Shown here in pieces: positions 3 to 5,693 of a stretch of DNA of 5,693 nucleotides. The position numbers were made by a program, and so were the translations under genes. The notes beneath the pieces were generated by a model. It saw only the letters and a program-made list of their open reading frames with translations. It was not told the DNA's origin and did no database searches. Source of the stretch: Aquamicrobium sp. (GTDB taxonomy: Bacteria; Pseudomonadota; Alphaproteobacteria; Rhizobiales; Rhizobiaceae); contig JACZJD010000690.1 in NCBI GenBank assembly GCA_014860725.1, positions 1 to 5,693 on the forward strand. The letters run 5' to 3'. The first letter of the stretch is position 1, and each line of letters opens with the position of its first letter.

Positions 3-287
3 GCCGAGGTGATCGCCATGCGCGACGCGGTGCCGACCGAGGCGCTGGCGACGCCGTTCCGCAACGCCGCGCTGCGCGACGTCGCCCGCGAGGTCCTGGA
101 CATCTCGCGGCGCGGGCTCGCCGCGCGGGCGCGCAGGAACCGCGAGGGCAGCGACGAGACCGGCTACCTCGCGCCGCTCGACGAGGTCGTGGCGCGCGGC
201 ACCACCAGCGCCGAGGAAATGCTGACCGCCTGGCGCACCCGCTGGGGCGGCTCGATCGAGCCGGTGTTCCTCGAATACGCATATTAA
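3..287 (+). CDS. gshA: Glutamate-cysteine ligase, C-terminal end (partial)
   Basis: This is the 3' end of a gene that begins before the window; 94 codons and a TAA stop are present. Glutamate-cysteine ligase joins L-glutamate and L-cysteine using ATP, the first and usually rate-limiting step of cytoplasmic glutathione synthesis. The identification rests on the tail. A charged helical stretch (ARARRNREGSDET) is followed by LAPLDEVVARG and then the ending WGGSIEPVFLEYAY, which matches the C-terminus I know from the plant/alphaproteobacterial class of GshA. The catalytic core is outside the window, so activity cannot be judged. The ATG and GTG codons at the very beginning are internal. The reading frame stays open to the window edge and the residues before them (AEVIA) fit the family. 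The next gene is convergent and only 23 bp away. No clear terminator hairpin lies between the two. Confidence 0.85.
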   Translation, partial: AEVIAMRDAVPTEALATPFRNAALRDVAREVLDISRRGLAARARRNREGSDETGYLAPLDEVVARGTTSAEEMLTAWRTRWGGSIEPVFLEYAY

Positions 288-310: not shown

Positions 311-2140
311 TCACTCGAAGCCGAACTCGCCGGGAGCCGGCGAGACGAAGGGCGTGTCCCACGCACCGCCGACGAAGAAGGGCATCTCGGCCTCGCCGCG
401 CGAGCCGTCCTCGGCCAGCGGCGTGAAGTAGCCCGAGAGCGCCAGCGCCCGGCCGAAATAGTGGACGATGCCGGCGAGCGACAGCACCAGCCGCTGGTCG
501 AGCGTCGCGTTGGCCTTCTCGATGCGGGCGACGCCGCCGGCGATCCTCGCCTTGAAGTCGAGGCCGCGCAGCGGCAGCGTGCCGCCGGCGACCTCCGTCA
601 GCGGGAAGAAGCCGCCGCCGCTCCACAGCGTCCGGAACTTCGCGAGGTCGAGGCCGACCAGCGCCCCCTGCCCCAGCGACGCCGACACCGAGCCTTCCGC
701 ACGGCGCAACGCCGTCTCCCAGTCGCCGCCCGCGCCCTTGAGCATGACCGACATCGTGGCCCTGCCCTGCGGCAGCAGGCGCTCGGCGCCCGCGGCCTTG
801 GCAAGCGCGAAGGCGTCGACATTGTTGGCCATCAGCCGCATCTCGACGGTCTTCTCCTCGCCCGCGCCGTCGATGCGCAGGCCGGCCTGCACCTCGCCGC
901 CGAAGGCTGTGGCGTCGGAGACGTCGAAGGCCGCCAGCGTGCCCTTGACCTGCGCCGAGGCGGCGATGTCGGTCAGCGCCACGCCGCCGAGCGTGGCGGC
1001 GGCCGAGGACAGCCGAAGATCGAGCGAGAGCTGGTCGGAGAAGGCGGTGTCGATCCTGTCCCGGAGGCTCTCCGTTCCCGGCGCGCCGGGCGTGAAGGCG
1101 AGCAGGAAGGAGCGCAGATCGAGCTTGTCGAAGGCCAGCGTGCCGGAGATGGCCGGCACCGGATCGGCGAAGGAAAGATCGAGCACGCCGCGGCCGGTGT
1201 TGCCGCCGAGCGTCAGCGCCGTCTGGTCGAGCCGCAGGCGCCTCGCGTTGCCCTGCACCCGGCTTGCGAGCGTCATCGCCCCGATGGCGGCGCCGGGCGC
1301 GATCCGGGTCTGGGACCATTCGAGCATGCGGCGGATCGACGGCGAGGAGAGCTTCACAGGTCCCTCGAAATAGGCCTCGCCCGACAGGTTCGCCACGCCC
1401 TCGAAGCTCGCCTCGACGAGCGGCGCCTTGAATGAGGCGTTGACCGTGGTGCTGCCGCCGGCCATCAGCAGCAGCGGCGAGGTGGCGGAGGCCTCGACGG
1501 CGACGTTCTCGCCGCGCCAGATGCCGGTGGCGACGAGCCGGGCGCCACGGTTGAGCGAGGGCCAGACGATGCGGCCGCGCAGGCTGGTGACGAGATCGCC
1601 GCCCGCATCCGCGATGCGGCCGTCGAAGAACTCGACCGTGCCGAAGGCGATGTCCGGCAGCGCGCCGACATCGGGGCTGGACGGGTTCTCGGCGACCACC
1701 CGGCGGGCCACCTCCACGGCGCGGATCATCCGTCCGCCGCCCGGCGAGGCGGGAAGGTCGATCACCGAGCCGGACATCGACAGCCGGAGCAGCGGCCGGT
1801 GCAGCGACATGCCGGAGAGCACGACGTTGCCGCGCAGCGCCGCGAGCGGCGACAGCGTGACCTCGAGCGACTCGGCCTCCAGCACCGGCGGCTGGCCGTC
1901 GCTCGCCCATTCGTGGAAGGCGACGTTCTCGAGCCGGGCCTCGAAGCCCGGCCAGACGTCGAGCACGGGCGCGGCCCCGAGCGACACGCGGTAGCCGCTC
2001 CACAGGCTCAGCTCATAGGCGATGCGGTCGCGCACGATCTGGGTGGAGGCGATCCACGGCAGGGCGGCGAAGGCGAGCAGGGCGAGCACCGCCAGAGTGG
2101 CGAGTGCTGCCAGTCCTCTCTTCACCGTCAGGATTCGCAT
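311..2140 (-). CDS. AsmA family envelope protein
   Basis: A 609-residue protein of the AsmA superfamily. Members are inner-membrane-anchored periplasmic proteins related to the bridge-like lipid-transport proteins (TamB, YhdP, AsmA), and in enteric bacteria they affect outer-membrane assembly and lipid homeostasis. The N-terminus is a basic leader (MRILTVKRG) and one hydrophobic segment at about residues 10-30. The typical AsmA N-terminal pattern follows: a region around GYRVSLGAAP and WPGFEARLENVAF (residues 49-75), then LEAESLEVTLSPLAALRGNVVLSGMSL (87-113). The C-terminal AsmA_2-like region at about 537-605 contains ATLDQRLVLSLAGIVHYFG and the ending PFFVGGAWDTPFVSP. The middle is repetitive beta-strand-like sequence. 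The start at ATG 2140 is firm on the upstream side, because an in-frame TGA lies at 2147-2149, and GAGG (2145-2148) sits 4 nt before it. The gene is divergent from the acetoacetyl-CoA synthetase gene. Its exact substrate is unknown. Confidence 0.85.
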   Translation of the reverse strand: MRILTVKRGLAALATLAVLALLAFAALPWIASTQIVRDRIAYELSLWSGYRVSLGAAPVLDVWPGFEARLENVAFHEWASDGQPPVLEAESLEVTLSPLAALRGNVVLSGMSLHRPLLRLSMSGSVIDLPASPGGGRMIRAVEVARRVVAENPSSPDVGALPDIAFGTVEFFDGRIADAGGDLVTSLRGRIVWPSLNRGARLVATGIWRGENVAVEASATSPLLLMAGGSTTVNASFKAPLVEASFEGVANLSGEAYFEGPVKLSSPSIRRMLEWSQTRIAPGAAIGAMTLASRVQGNARRLRLDQTALTLGGNTGRGVLDLSFADPVPAISGTLAFDKLDLRSFLLAFTPGAPGTESLRDRIDTAFSDQLSLDLRLSSAAATLGGVALTDIAASAQVKGTLAAFDVSDATAFGGEVQAGLRIDGAGEEKTVEMRLMANNVDAFALAKAAGAERLLPQGRATMSVMLKGAGGDWETALRRAEGSVSASLGQGALVGLDLAKFRTLWSGGGFFPLTEVAGGTLPLRGLDFKARIAGGVARIEKANATLDQRLVLSLAGIVHYFGRALALSGYFTPLAEDGSRGEAEMPFFVGGAWDTPFVSPAPGEFGFE

Positions 2141-2339: not shown

Positions 2340-4298
<1,959 letters not shown>

Positions 4299-4424
4299 CG
4301 GCAGGCAAGGTTAACGAACGGTAACGGCGAAATTTACCTCGTTTTCACGAGCCATACCGATTCGTAAACCTGTAAACATCCGGGTAAGAAATCATTAAGG
4401 TCCGCCCACGATAGTCGTGCGTAA
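4299..4424. other. AT-rich control region upstream of the probable sRNA
   Basis: This stretch contains no plausible gene. Positions 4311-4400 are about 43% GC by my count, well below the neighbouring coding DNA. (T/G)TAA words occur at 4311, 4321, 4364, 4372, 4384, 4395 and 4421, with GTAAAC repeated at 4364 and 4372. A GANTC site (GATTC) lies at 4359-4363. CACGA-TAG-TCGTG at 4407-4419 is a perfect 5-bp inverted repeat. Base composition and repeated words suggest a promoter with regulator sites, not simply the tail of acsA2. Confidence 0.5.
4384..4398. promoter_or_regulatory. CtrA-like binding site
   Basis: GTAA, seven bases, then TTAA. This differs by one base from the TTAA-N7-TTAA box bound by the cell-cycle regulator CtrA, with exact spacing. 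It sits about 25-40 bp before the probable start of the small RNA, where CtrA boxes usually overlap the -35 region. Short AT words are common in AT-rich spacers, so this is suggestive only. Confidence 0.35.
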
Positions 4425-4530
4425 CTTGAGGGAGAGATCGGCTTCCGGCGCCCCCCGCGGAGCAGATACGCTCAAGCCCCTGTGTAGCAGCCCATTTTTC
4501 TCATTCGAGCGCCCTTTCCGGGCGCTTTTT
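4425..4530 (+). ncRNA. Probable trans-acting small RNA gene (about 105 nt)
   Basis: No open frame explains this segment, yet it has sRNA architecture ending in a strong terminator. CTTGAG (4425-4430) pairs perfectly with CTCAAG (4471-4476). Inside it, 4441-4447 pairs with 4458-4463 (one bulged T at 4444) and presents a 10-nt loop with six Cs (4451-4456), suited to pairing with ribosome binding sites. A mostly unpaired stretch follows, with a pyrimidine-rich tract (ATTTTTCTCATTC, 4494-4506) that could bind Hfq. Last comes the terminator hairpin. The 5' end is inferred, not seen: it could be about 4405 if the hairpin 4407-4419 belongs to it, or the RNA could be processed from the acsA2 3' UTR. 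Alphaproteobacteria carry conserved sRNAs of this size and style (the alpha-r families, EcpR1, MmgR). I cannot assign it to one from memory. Confidence 0.55.
4508..4530 (+). terminator. Rho-independent terminator
   Basis: AGCGCCC (4508-4514) and GGGCGCT (4520-4526) form a perfect 7-bp GC-rich stem around the 5-nt loop TTTCC. A run of five T (4526-4530), then C and three more T, follows. The T-run exists only on the + strand side, so it ends rightward transcription. It lies 210 bp past the acsA2 stop, which suits a separate sRNA better than an acsA2 terminator. Read from the histidine kinase side, the hairpin has no following U-run. Confidence 0.88.
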
Positions 4531-4563
4531 CTTTGGTGATTCGCTGCGCCGGCCGGGGCGGGC

Positions 4564-5693
4564 CTACTCGGCCAGCACCCGCGTCGAGGGGAAGACGATC
4601 TCGACCAGCGTGCCCTCGCCCGGCGTCGAGGCGATCGAGAAGCGGGCGCGGTTGGCCTCGACCATCGCCTTGGTCAGCGGCAGGCCGAGGCCGGTGCCGT
4701 CGTTGCGGCCGCGCTTCAGCGCGTTGATCTGCTTGAACGGCTTCAGCGCCTGGTCGATCTCGGCCAGCGTCATGCCGATGCCGGTGTCGCGCACCCGCAT
4801 CGCCACGTCGCCCGACGGCTCGTAGGCGGTCGAGACGATGACCTGCCCGCCCGCCTGCGTATAGCGGATGGCGTTCGACAGAAGGTTGAGCGCGATCTGG
4901 CGCACGCTCCTCAGATCGGCCACCACCTCCGGCAGGCGCGAGGCGAGCGAGGAGCGGATGATGACGCGCTCGCGGTTGGCCTGCGGCTGCATCATGGCGA
5001 CGGCTTCCGCCAGCGCCTCGTTGAGCGAGACGGCCTCGTAGTTCATCTCCTGCTCGCCGGCCTCGATCTTGGAGATGTCGAGGAGGTCGTTGACCAGATC
5101 GAGCACGTGGTTGCCGGAGCGGTTGATGTCGCGCAGATAGTCGCGGTAGCGGTCGGAGCCGATCGGGCCGAACTTCTCGTCCATCATCAGCTCGGAGAAG
5201 CCGATGATGGCGTTCAACGGCGTGCGGATCTCGTGGCTGACGCGGGCGAGGAACTCGGTCTTCTGCGACGAGGCGCGCTCGGCCTGGGCGCGCGCCTGCG
5301 TCAGCTCCTCCTCGGCGCGCTTGAACTGGGTGATGTCGCGCACCACGGCGCAGTAGCCGCTGTCTTCGGGCAGGCGGCCGATGGTCATGAACAGCGGGAT
5401 GAAGCGGCCTTCGGCCTCGCGGCCGATCACCTCGCGGCCGTCGTTCAGCACGCTGGCGACGCCGTTGTCGGCGAGGCCGGCGAGATAGTCGCGGGCCGAC
5501 TTCTGGCTCTCGATGGCGAACAGCGTCGCGAAGGGCTTGCCCTCGACCGCGGCGCTGTCGAAGCCGAACAGCGCCTCCGCCGGGCGGCTGATGTTGCGGA
5601 TCGTCCCGTCGGGCGCGATCAGCACCACGCCGTCGGTGGCGGTGTCGATGATGGTGCGCAGCTCGGCCAGCCGGCGCTCGAGCTCCTGCACCA
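4564..5693 (-). CDS. cbrA: PAS-domain sensor histidine kinase, CbrA/PleC/DivJ type (3' part)
   Basis: The gene starts beyond the window; about 376 C-terminal residues and a TAG stop are present. Numbering from Q/E-rich residue 1 at 5691 (a GTG that is probably internal), the order is: PAS domain (about 8-122, with TDGVVLIAPDGTIRNIS and VVRDITQFKRAEEEL), a short coiled coil (123-148), HisKA with phospho-acceptor H153 in SHEIRTPLNAIIGF, and HATPase_c. The latter has N-box N269/N273, G1 box DTGIGM (302-307), F-box around F319 and G2 box GTGLGL (332-337). All catalytic residues are intact and no receiver domain is fused. The HisKA sequence (FGPIGSDRYRDYLRDIN) and the FKQINALKRGRNDGTGLGLPLTKAMVEANRA-like tail resemble kinases acting on DivK. 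In S. meliloti CbrA controls DivK-CtrA signalling, the cell surface and symbiosis. The symbol rests on this resemblance and the acsA2 neighbour. PleC or DivJ remain possible. Confidence 0.75.
   Translation of the reverse strand, partial: VQELERRLAELRTIIDTATDGVVLIAPDGTIRNISRPAEALFGFDSAAVEGKPFATLFAIESQKSARDYLAGLADNGVASVLNDGREVIGREAEGRFIPLFMTIGRLPEDSGYCAVVRDITQFKRAEEELTQARAQAERASSQKTEFLARVSHEIRTPLNAIIGFSELMMDEKFGPIGSDRYRDYLRDINRSGNHVLDLVNDLLDISKIEAGEQEMNYEAVSLNEALAEAVAMMQPQANRERVIIRSSLASRLPEVVADLRSVRQIALNLLSNAIRYTQAGGQVIVSTAYEPSGDVAMRVRDTGIGMTLAEIDQALKPFKQINALKRGRNDGTGLGLPLTKAMVEANRARFSIASTPGEGTLVEIVFPSTRVLAE

Follow-up and report, generated by a model that had tools for sequence, protein, structure and literature searches.

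The question raised by this locus is whether a long spacer between two converging genes carries a small RNA (sRNA) gene of its own or only the end of a messenger RNA. In the 5,693-nt stretch of Aquamicrobium sp. contig JACZJD010000690.1 analysed here (the window), the acsA2 stop codon lies at 4296-4298 and the stop codon of a converging PAS/HisKA kinase gene starts at 4564, so that a 265-bp spacer (4299-4563) separates acsA2 (plus strand) from the kinase gene (minus strand). A first-pass annotation of this DNA had proposed an sRNA gene from the length of this spacer, a plus-strand terminator about 210 bp past the acsA2 stop, a closing stem and a C-rich loop, and each of these is present: the terminator stem-loop (4507-4527; 8 pairs, a loop of 5, then TTTCTTT) starts 209 nt past the stop, the arms CTTGAG (4425-4430) and CTCAAG (4471-4476) are complementary, and a C run occupies 4451-4456. 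Comparison with relatives showed a predicted conserved RNA of ~105-130 nt, with a closing stem, inner hairpins, a conserved linker and an intrinsic terminator, that follows acsA2 and is preceded at a nearly fixed distance by a putative CtrA-type box. The window copy is very probably a somewhat diverged member of this sRNA family with a CtrA-type promoter. We give a probability of roughly 0.7 to the reading that it is an independent gene for a trans-acting small RNA. Among its parts, that this is a real sRNA gene is held with high confidence, control by CtrA is judged probable from the promoter sequence, and action in trans by base pairing is somewhat favoured.

Taken on its own, the window sequence provides weak evidence. 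One terminator was observed in it where 0.6 were expected from shuffled sequences, the fold of 4404-4534 had a z-score of -2.28 (3/200 shuffles equally stable) and that of the full spacer a z-score of -1.04 (35/200 shuffles equally stable). The case rises above chance because of the comparison, namely covariation in 43 distinct rows and a box at a fixed distance.

Loci of relatives were fetched through acsA2, the best 80 among the matches listed being taken. The spacer can be aligned over its full length in the window and 13 loci of Mesorhizobium, Aminobacter and Aquibium, and the element is found at the same place with a changed sequence in Rhizobium, Ensifer, Sinorhizobium, Shinella and Pararhizobium. 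The 247 genomes searched by BLASTN with window positions 4299-4534 came from the family to which Mesorhizobium albiziae (G002) belongs, and 34 of them matched at E <= 3e-7; this query hardly detects the Rhizobium/Ensifer form, and the looser tally of 200/247 at E <= 1 means little. An Ensifer spacer query matched 16/16 genomes of the genus and a Sinorhizobium-group query 28 of 33 genomes, at E <= 0.001 and at one place each.

Fifteen Mesorhizobium-type rows, the window among them, went into a covariance model (R1) with the closing stem P1, the inner hairpin P3 and the terminator, so the window's own match to R1 is not independent. In a wider, selected Mesorhizobium-type set of 45 sources R1 found a match in every one; this set comprises the 15 building rows, and the others had been found by BLASTN or through acsA2. 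The resulting alignment A6 (45 matches, 43 of them distinct; L012, the Rhizobiaceae loci and L116, from the same genome as L002, were omitted) has 93.5% of cells paired and changes on both sides in 17 of 19 pairs, with at most 55.4% in slid controls; because it was fitted to the structure, its pairing leans towards that structure. For the Rhizobiaceae, 33 hand-chosen rows (17 of L018-L042 and 16 of L128-L171) were aligned with MAFFT (A7) and a structure of P1, three inner hairpins and the terminator was set by hand from the alignment. In A7, 89.3% of cells are paired, 18 of 29 pairs change on both sides and slid controls reach at most 53.4%. The stems are conserved, with compensatory changes, in the acsA2 spacers of both sets, which is what the first-pass annotation had asked of relatives.

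Each model also recovers part of the other clade. Searched up to E=10, R1 found the right place in 18/22 element-bearing Rhizobiaceae loci, with more than 32 bits in three only (L023 38.7, L022 36.2, L020 34.4); in a genome-wide run on 8 genomes it returned the true place in three (G001, G002, G005) and just weak other places in five. A second model (R2), made from the 33 rows of A7, matched rows left out of that alignment (L025 48.6, L031 67.2, L035 36.2, L036 52.9 and L047 28.7 bits) and, of 27 Mesorhizobium-type loci, located the right place in 21; the score was at least 35 bits in 11 of these, with a maximum of 44.7 in L006. Three loci are unusual in other ways. Rhizobium sp. CCGE 510 (L036, 5044-5270) has a repeat-like insert of ~120 bp within an inner hairpin of the sRNA, and L155 carries a similar repeat upstream of its sRNA. 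In Phyllobacterium salinisoli (L012, 4960-5250), the spacer has a TTAA-type stretch and a terminator and lacks AACTTGAG; R2 gives it 12.5 bits and it is perhaps a strongly diverged member.

The promoter region was compared in the same way. In its looser form (AA-N7-TT[A/T]A), the box precedes the RNA start by 23-25 nt in 73 of the 79 orthologs, at a shuffled rate of 0.12%, and its strict form (TAA-N7-TTAA) is present in 56/79, at a shuffled rate of 0.014%; after thinning to 58 sequences the figures are 52 and 39. These rates come from single-base shuffles, and three of the 79 orthologs are without an exact AACTTG. Six of the seven fixed box columns carry 1.06-1.64 bits and the first T carries 0.72, whereas columns between the box and the start (-22, -21 and -5) carry just 0.04-0.07 bits. 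Because these intervening columns vary freely while the box is conserved, the box looks selected and not merely shared by descent. The consensus from verified CtrA sites of S. meliloti is TAA-N7-TTAAC (PMC3616915); the CtrA box expected in the promoter of a CtrA-controlled sRNA is thus present in the window as a sequence match, with a different last base. At -140 to -40, 57 CtrA half-site words were observed in 23 chosen loci where shuffling predicts 5.3, and three of these loci have none. The -10-like element takes a CATGGT-like form in many Ensifer and Sinorhizobium loci. The coordinates of these features in the window are collected in Table 1.

Table 1. Predicted sRNA gene, its putative promoter elements and the neighbouring genes in the window
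Feature	Position	Strand	Evidence or remark
CtrA-type box TAA-N7-TTAA	4385-4398	+	once in window, 0 in 200 shuffles
CtrA half-site words TTAAC (4311-4315) and TTTACC (4333-4338)	4311-4338	+	sequence
-10-like element CGATAGTC	4409-4416	+	CGATA and TC invariant in 14 aligned Mesorhizobium-type spacers
Predicted small RNA (ends inferred)	about 4422-4534	+	R1 match 4421-4534; orthologs
Closing stem P1	4425-4430 with 4471-4476	+	97.6% of cells paired; both-side changes in 4/6 pairs
Inner hairpin P3 with C-rich loop	4441-4463	+	84.7% of cells paired; both-side changes in 5/5 pairs; boundaries from constrained fold
Linker, candidate target-pairing stretch	4477-4506	+	consensus GUUGUGACAGCA in Mesorhizobium-type relatives; UGUGUAGCAGCC in window
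Intrinsic terminator	4507-4534	+	95.6% of cells paired; both-side changes in 8/8 pairs
Glutamate-cysteine ligase gene, end part	3-287	+	
AsmA-family gene	311-2140	-	
acsA2, acetoacetate--CoA ligase, constant upstream neighbour	2340-4298	+	TIGR01217, 1015 bits (cut-off 520.9)
PAS/HisKA/HATPase kinase, C-terminal part (gene 3' part), convergent, CbrA-like	4564-5691	-	Pfam HisKA, HATPase_c, PAS

Combined, these features suggest how the gene might work. Phosphorylated CtrA would bind TAA-N7-TTAA over the -35 region and, together with a weak -10 element, would start transcription near 4422; as this start would be activated by CtrA, synthesis of the RNA would be tied to a particular cell-cycle phase. 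The transcript would end at the terminator and Hfq could hold its U tail; the intrinsic terminator with a U tract that is typical of Hfq-bound trans-acting sRNAs is present. Pairing with mRNAs may then take place through the linker, which we infer to be the target-pairing stretch, and, in many Mesorhizobium-type members, through the C-rich loop. An AGC core is kept in the linker of 38/45 rows of the Mesorhizobium-type alignment and 32/33 rows of the Rhizobiaceae alignment. CCCC occurs in the inner hairpin of 27/45 Mesorhizobium-type rows and inside the closing stem in just 2/33 Rhizobiaceae rows. In the Rhizobiales isolate AFS000733 (L025, 5124-5155) the linker is present as a tandem duplicate, with GTTGAACAGCACCAAA at 5124 and 5140, which may hint at its importance. 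Two candidate partners were dropped. The TTAGC linker of 19/33 Rhizobiaceae rows speaks against pairing of the linker with MmgR, and of the matches to positions 132-164 of the window-spacer query, found in many genomes and considered as targets, the one inspected among four stretches fetched (L119) looks like an IS110-like transposase region. The resemblance of 33 nt of the window sRNA to that region is probably due to chance.

A number of observations weigh against an independent, trans-acting sRNA gene under CtrA control. The lowest-energy fold of 4423-4531 omits the closing stem (-41.6 kcal/mol compared to -36.7 with the stem and terminator enforced, a gap of 4.9), and the GGGA/UCCC hairpin of relatives is degraded in the window strain. 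Support is good for the structure of the family and weaker for its use by this strain. Predicted ensembles leave the linker just moderately unpaired (0.65 and 0.48), and a perfect complement of its 12-mer was found only at the gene itself in the three genomes probed for targets (3/3). Spacer identity is a weak control: in 10 relatives it is 68.3-75.3% for the RNA spacer, 62.9-73.4% for the spacer before acsA2 (60.7-69.9% in four shuffles), and the RNA spacer exceeds the pre-acsA2 spacer in seven relatives and falls below it in three. R1 matches elsewhere reach 26.4 bits. R2 misses the window itself as well as L001, L014, L089, L101 and L114, and its false matches, at groEL ends, reach 31.9 bits; further false or doubtful R2 matches are L016 (25.3 bits), L047 on the minus strand (21.0), L024 (18.5), L015 (16.5) and L017 (15.1). 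With a false level of about 32 bits, an R2 match below ~35 bits is therefore not trusted on its own; many of the scores between clades convince only in combination with the shared position, and much of the argument across clades lies with that position and the box. The box itself is absent at that place in 6/79 loci, and the final C of the consensus is replaced in all 14 Mesorhizobium-type spacers (13 G, including the window, and 1 T). This last departure would be explained if the box served a regulator other than CtrA, for instance another TTAA-type factor, which would leave a real sRNA that CtrA does not time. The kept TAA-N7-TTAA spacing (strict form 56/79) and the half-site words upstream argue for CtrA, and we consider such a regulator unlikely.

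Other explanations bear on the nature and the novelty of the element. The conserved structure could belong to the 3' untranslated region (UTR) and terminator of acsA2, shaping the end of the mRNA or giving rise by processing to a 3'-UTR RNA, in which case it would have no separate promoter. The gene acsA2 is indeed the constant neighbour of the element, partly by choice because the first loci were fetched through it, and the terminator search found no terminator-like site between the acsA2 stop and the element besides the element's own. Against this, a promoter-type box and a -10-like element stand at a nearly fixed distance with half-site words upstream, and acsA2 is intact in five genomes without the element and in S. 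meliloti Ak57. The box at a fixed distance favours an independent, probably cell-cycle-timed gene, and a 3'-UTR origin appears improbable. A small protein gene is far less credible still: closed open reading frames of at least 25 amino acids occur in 14/78 rows, whereas length differences are not multiples of three, pairing is conserved and no consistent reading frame was seen (arm-to-arm distances, measured in 58 of 78 rows, split 24/23/11 modulo 3). Compatible with an sRNA gene, and bearing on its novelty, is the doubtful identity with an RNA candidate of Mesorhizobium huakuii 7653R, most likely MH_s11, a plus-strand RNA of 165 nt between convergent genes, detected by RNA-seq and Northern blot and listed with no Rfam annotation (PMC5596092). 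On that chromosome MH_s11 and MH_s22 on the plus strand and MH_s16 on the minus strand each lie between a plus- and a minus-strand gene (PMC5596092). The flanking genes of MH_s11 are given as locus tags only. Ten genomes were searched and six have the sRNA and RNase P on one contig: in three (G112, G163, G172) the two genes lie on opposite strands and 1.9-2.2 Mb apart, much as for MH_s11 (1.70 Mb), and in the other three (G113, G214, G223) the relative strand differs. A position that fits in 3/6 and fails in 3/6 makes earlier detection as a transcript possible. The length (165 nt vs ~110 for the window RNA) and the homologs of MH_s11 reported in Bartonella (PMC5596092) speak against identity.

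The element is missing from some genomes in which acsA2 is kept. In S. meliloti Ak57 (CP090106.1), acsA2 and its neighbours are retained around a 290-bp spacer without the box and without AACTTG. R2 gave no match at this acsA2 locus up to E=10, and R1, with stricter filters, found nothing across the whole record; across the same record R2 returned four weak places, the best a groEL end and the other three at E 0.2-0.8. Five of the 33 Sinorhizobium-group genomes have an intact acsA2 with the element absent after it: none of the five has AACTTG within 420 nt after acsA2 or an R2 match at the locus, and the loose box of one (L177) and the AACTGG of one (L180) come without the remaining element. 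The weak R2 matches that these genomes have elsewhere were groEL ends in the part inspected. The R2 matches inspected in the S. meliloti group were likewise rejected, as L204, L205, L206, L207 and L209 are groEL gene ends and L208 a groEL end with repeats; in L208 (G277, S. medicae-like) a groEL copy has tandem repeats behind its end, made up in part of its final codons and the stretch downstream. Matches link G277 to S. medicae replicons and G278 to Sinorhizobium sp. K101, M103 and C101, and over the 12 kb compared one G279 replicon shows full identity with NZ_CP141213.1, which is named S. meliloti; a search with a pSymB fragment for S. meliloti itself found no near-identical genome among the 33. 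Several records filed as plasmids (CP090106.1, titled pSymB, NZ_CP104127, NZ_CP104131 and NZ_CP104135) resemble whole chromosomes (3.5-3.7 Mb, with acsA2). On the basis of map position, SmelC073, then SmelC151 and SmelC165, were candidates for the counterpart in S. meliloti and were dropped: the Ak57 acsA2 spacer is without the RNA, so neither SmelC151 nor SmelC165 is encoded there as its ortholog.

These absences lead to a wider proposal, which we put forward tentatively: an ancient and as yet undescribed CtrA-driven sRNA family, predating the split between the Mesorhizobium-type and Rhizobium/Ensifer-type lineages and acting as a riboregulator timed by the cell cycle much like CcnA of Caulobacter crescentus, may have been lost in the S. 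meliloti/S. medicae lineage. Such a loss would explain its absence from S. meliloti-based catalogues; among the catalogues consulted, the main comparative one for sRNA families of rhizobia began from S. meliloti sRNAs (PMC3927594). A conserved family lost by S. meliloti would escape a design of this kind, which is a reason to redo sRNA discovery with other rhizobia as the starting point. Should the box be used, the master regulator of the cell cycle would directly control a small RNA in nitrogen-fixing symbionts, and a mutable box with a measurable RNA would make post-transcriptional control of the cell cycle testable outside Caulobacter. The examined S. meliloti and S. medicae genomes that are without the element provide a ready natural comparison.

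The converging gene was also examined. Two genes were sought in 125 tabulated acsA2 loci, a set that contains a few duplicates and some loci lacking the RNA. The nearest convergent one of the two was an ABC permease gene in 87 loci and the kinase in 22, with neither within 1.5 kb in 16; the Mesorhizobium-type permeases have only 51-58% identity to the query. In the seven RNA-bearing loci with both genes in reach (L018, L019, L021, L027, L028, L029 and L031) the permease sits between the RNA and the kinase, and the order acsA2, ABC permease, PAS kinase is found in the Sinorhizobium-group genome G280 and in S. meliloti Ak57, where the permease is annotated as an iron ABC transporter permease. 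The CbrA-like kinase of the window apparently adjoins the RNA only for want of a permease gene between them; its adjacency is probably secondary and tells little about the function of the RNA, and the weight that the first-pass annotation gave to it is not borne out. The cell-cycle role suggested there is favoured nonetheless, now because of the CtrA-type box and no longer on the basis of the kinase. For a polyhydroxybutyrate role, only the neighbourhood speaks. In S. meliloti Ak57 (L188, 7834-11914) the phasin gene phaP1 lies just past the PAS kinase, so that acsA2 and a phasin gene flank the region.

Rfam 15 gave no match in the window at gathering scores, and up to E 10 three weak matches in 4290-4570 (14.8, 13.8 and 12.5 bits, with gathering scores of 70, 50 and 41). 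The literature search, in open-licence papers without supplementary lists (Rhizobium etli, Agrobacterium), where earlier detection is possible, found no sRNA named as lying after acsA2. As far as these searches reach the family is new, in keeping with the undescribed RNA that had been allowed for; the kind of element is already known. Of the earlier proposal of an sRNA gene, possibly of a described family, the discrete gene stands, with its stems and its own box, and membership of EcpR1 or MmgR falls. EcpR1 (SmelC291) is, like the RNA described here, a conserved rhizobial trans-acting sRNA with a cell-cycle link. It is encoded downstream of divK-pleD in S. meliloti and has the loop motif UCCGCCGCAUCU (PMC4414408), whereas here the flanks are acsA2 and a PAS/HisKA kinase and the spacer does not contain the motif: allowing up to two mismatches, it occurs in the window only at 832-843 and 1324-1335, no more often than by chance. 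With MmgR/suhB (RF00519; 12.5 bits, gathering score 41) the window RNA has in common the terminator with its U tail, and the profile match is limited to the surroundings of the terminator. GspR (SmelC775) is another rhizobial cell-cycle sRNA; encoded between SMc03844 and SMc03845 (PMC5928217) and likely limited to Sinorhizobium (PMC7143759), it was rejected as a counterpart on its different flanks. The nearest system in working principle, likened by description and not by sequence, is CcnA, which has a CtrA box, cell-cycle regulation and a CCCC loop (PMC8959179). CcnA is 182 nt long and lies at the replication origin, whereas the family of the window RNA is ~105-130 nt long and lies after acsA2.
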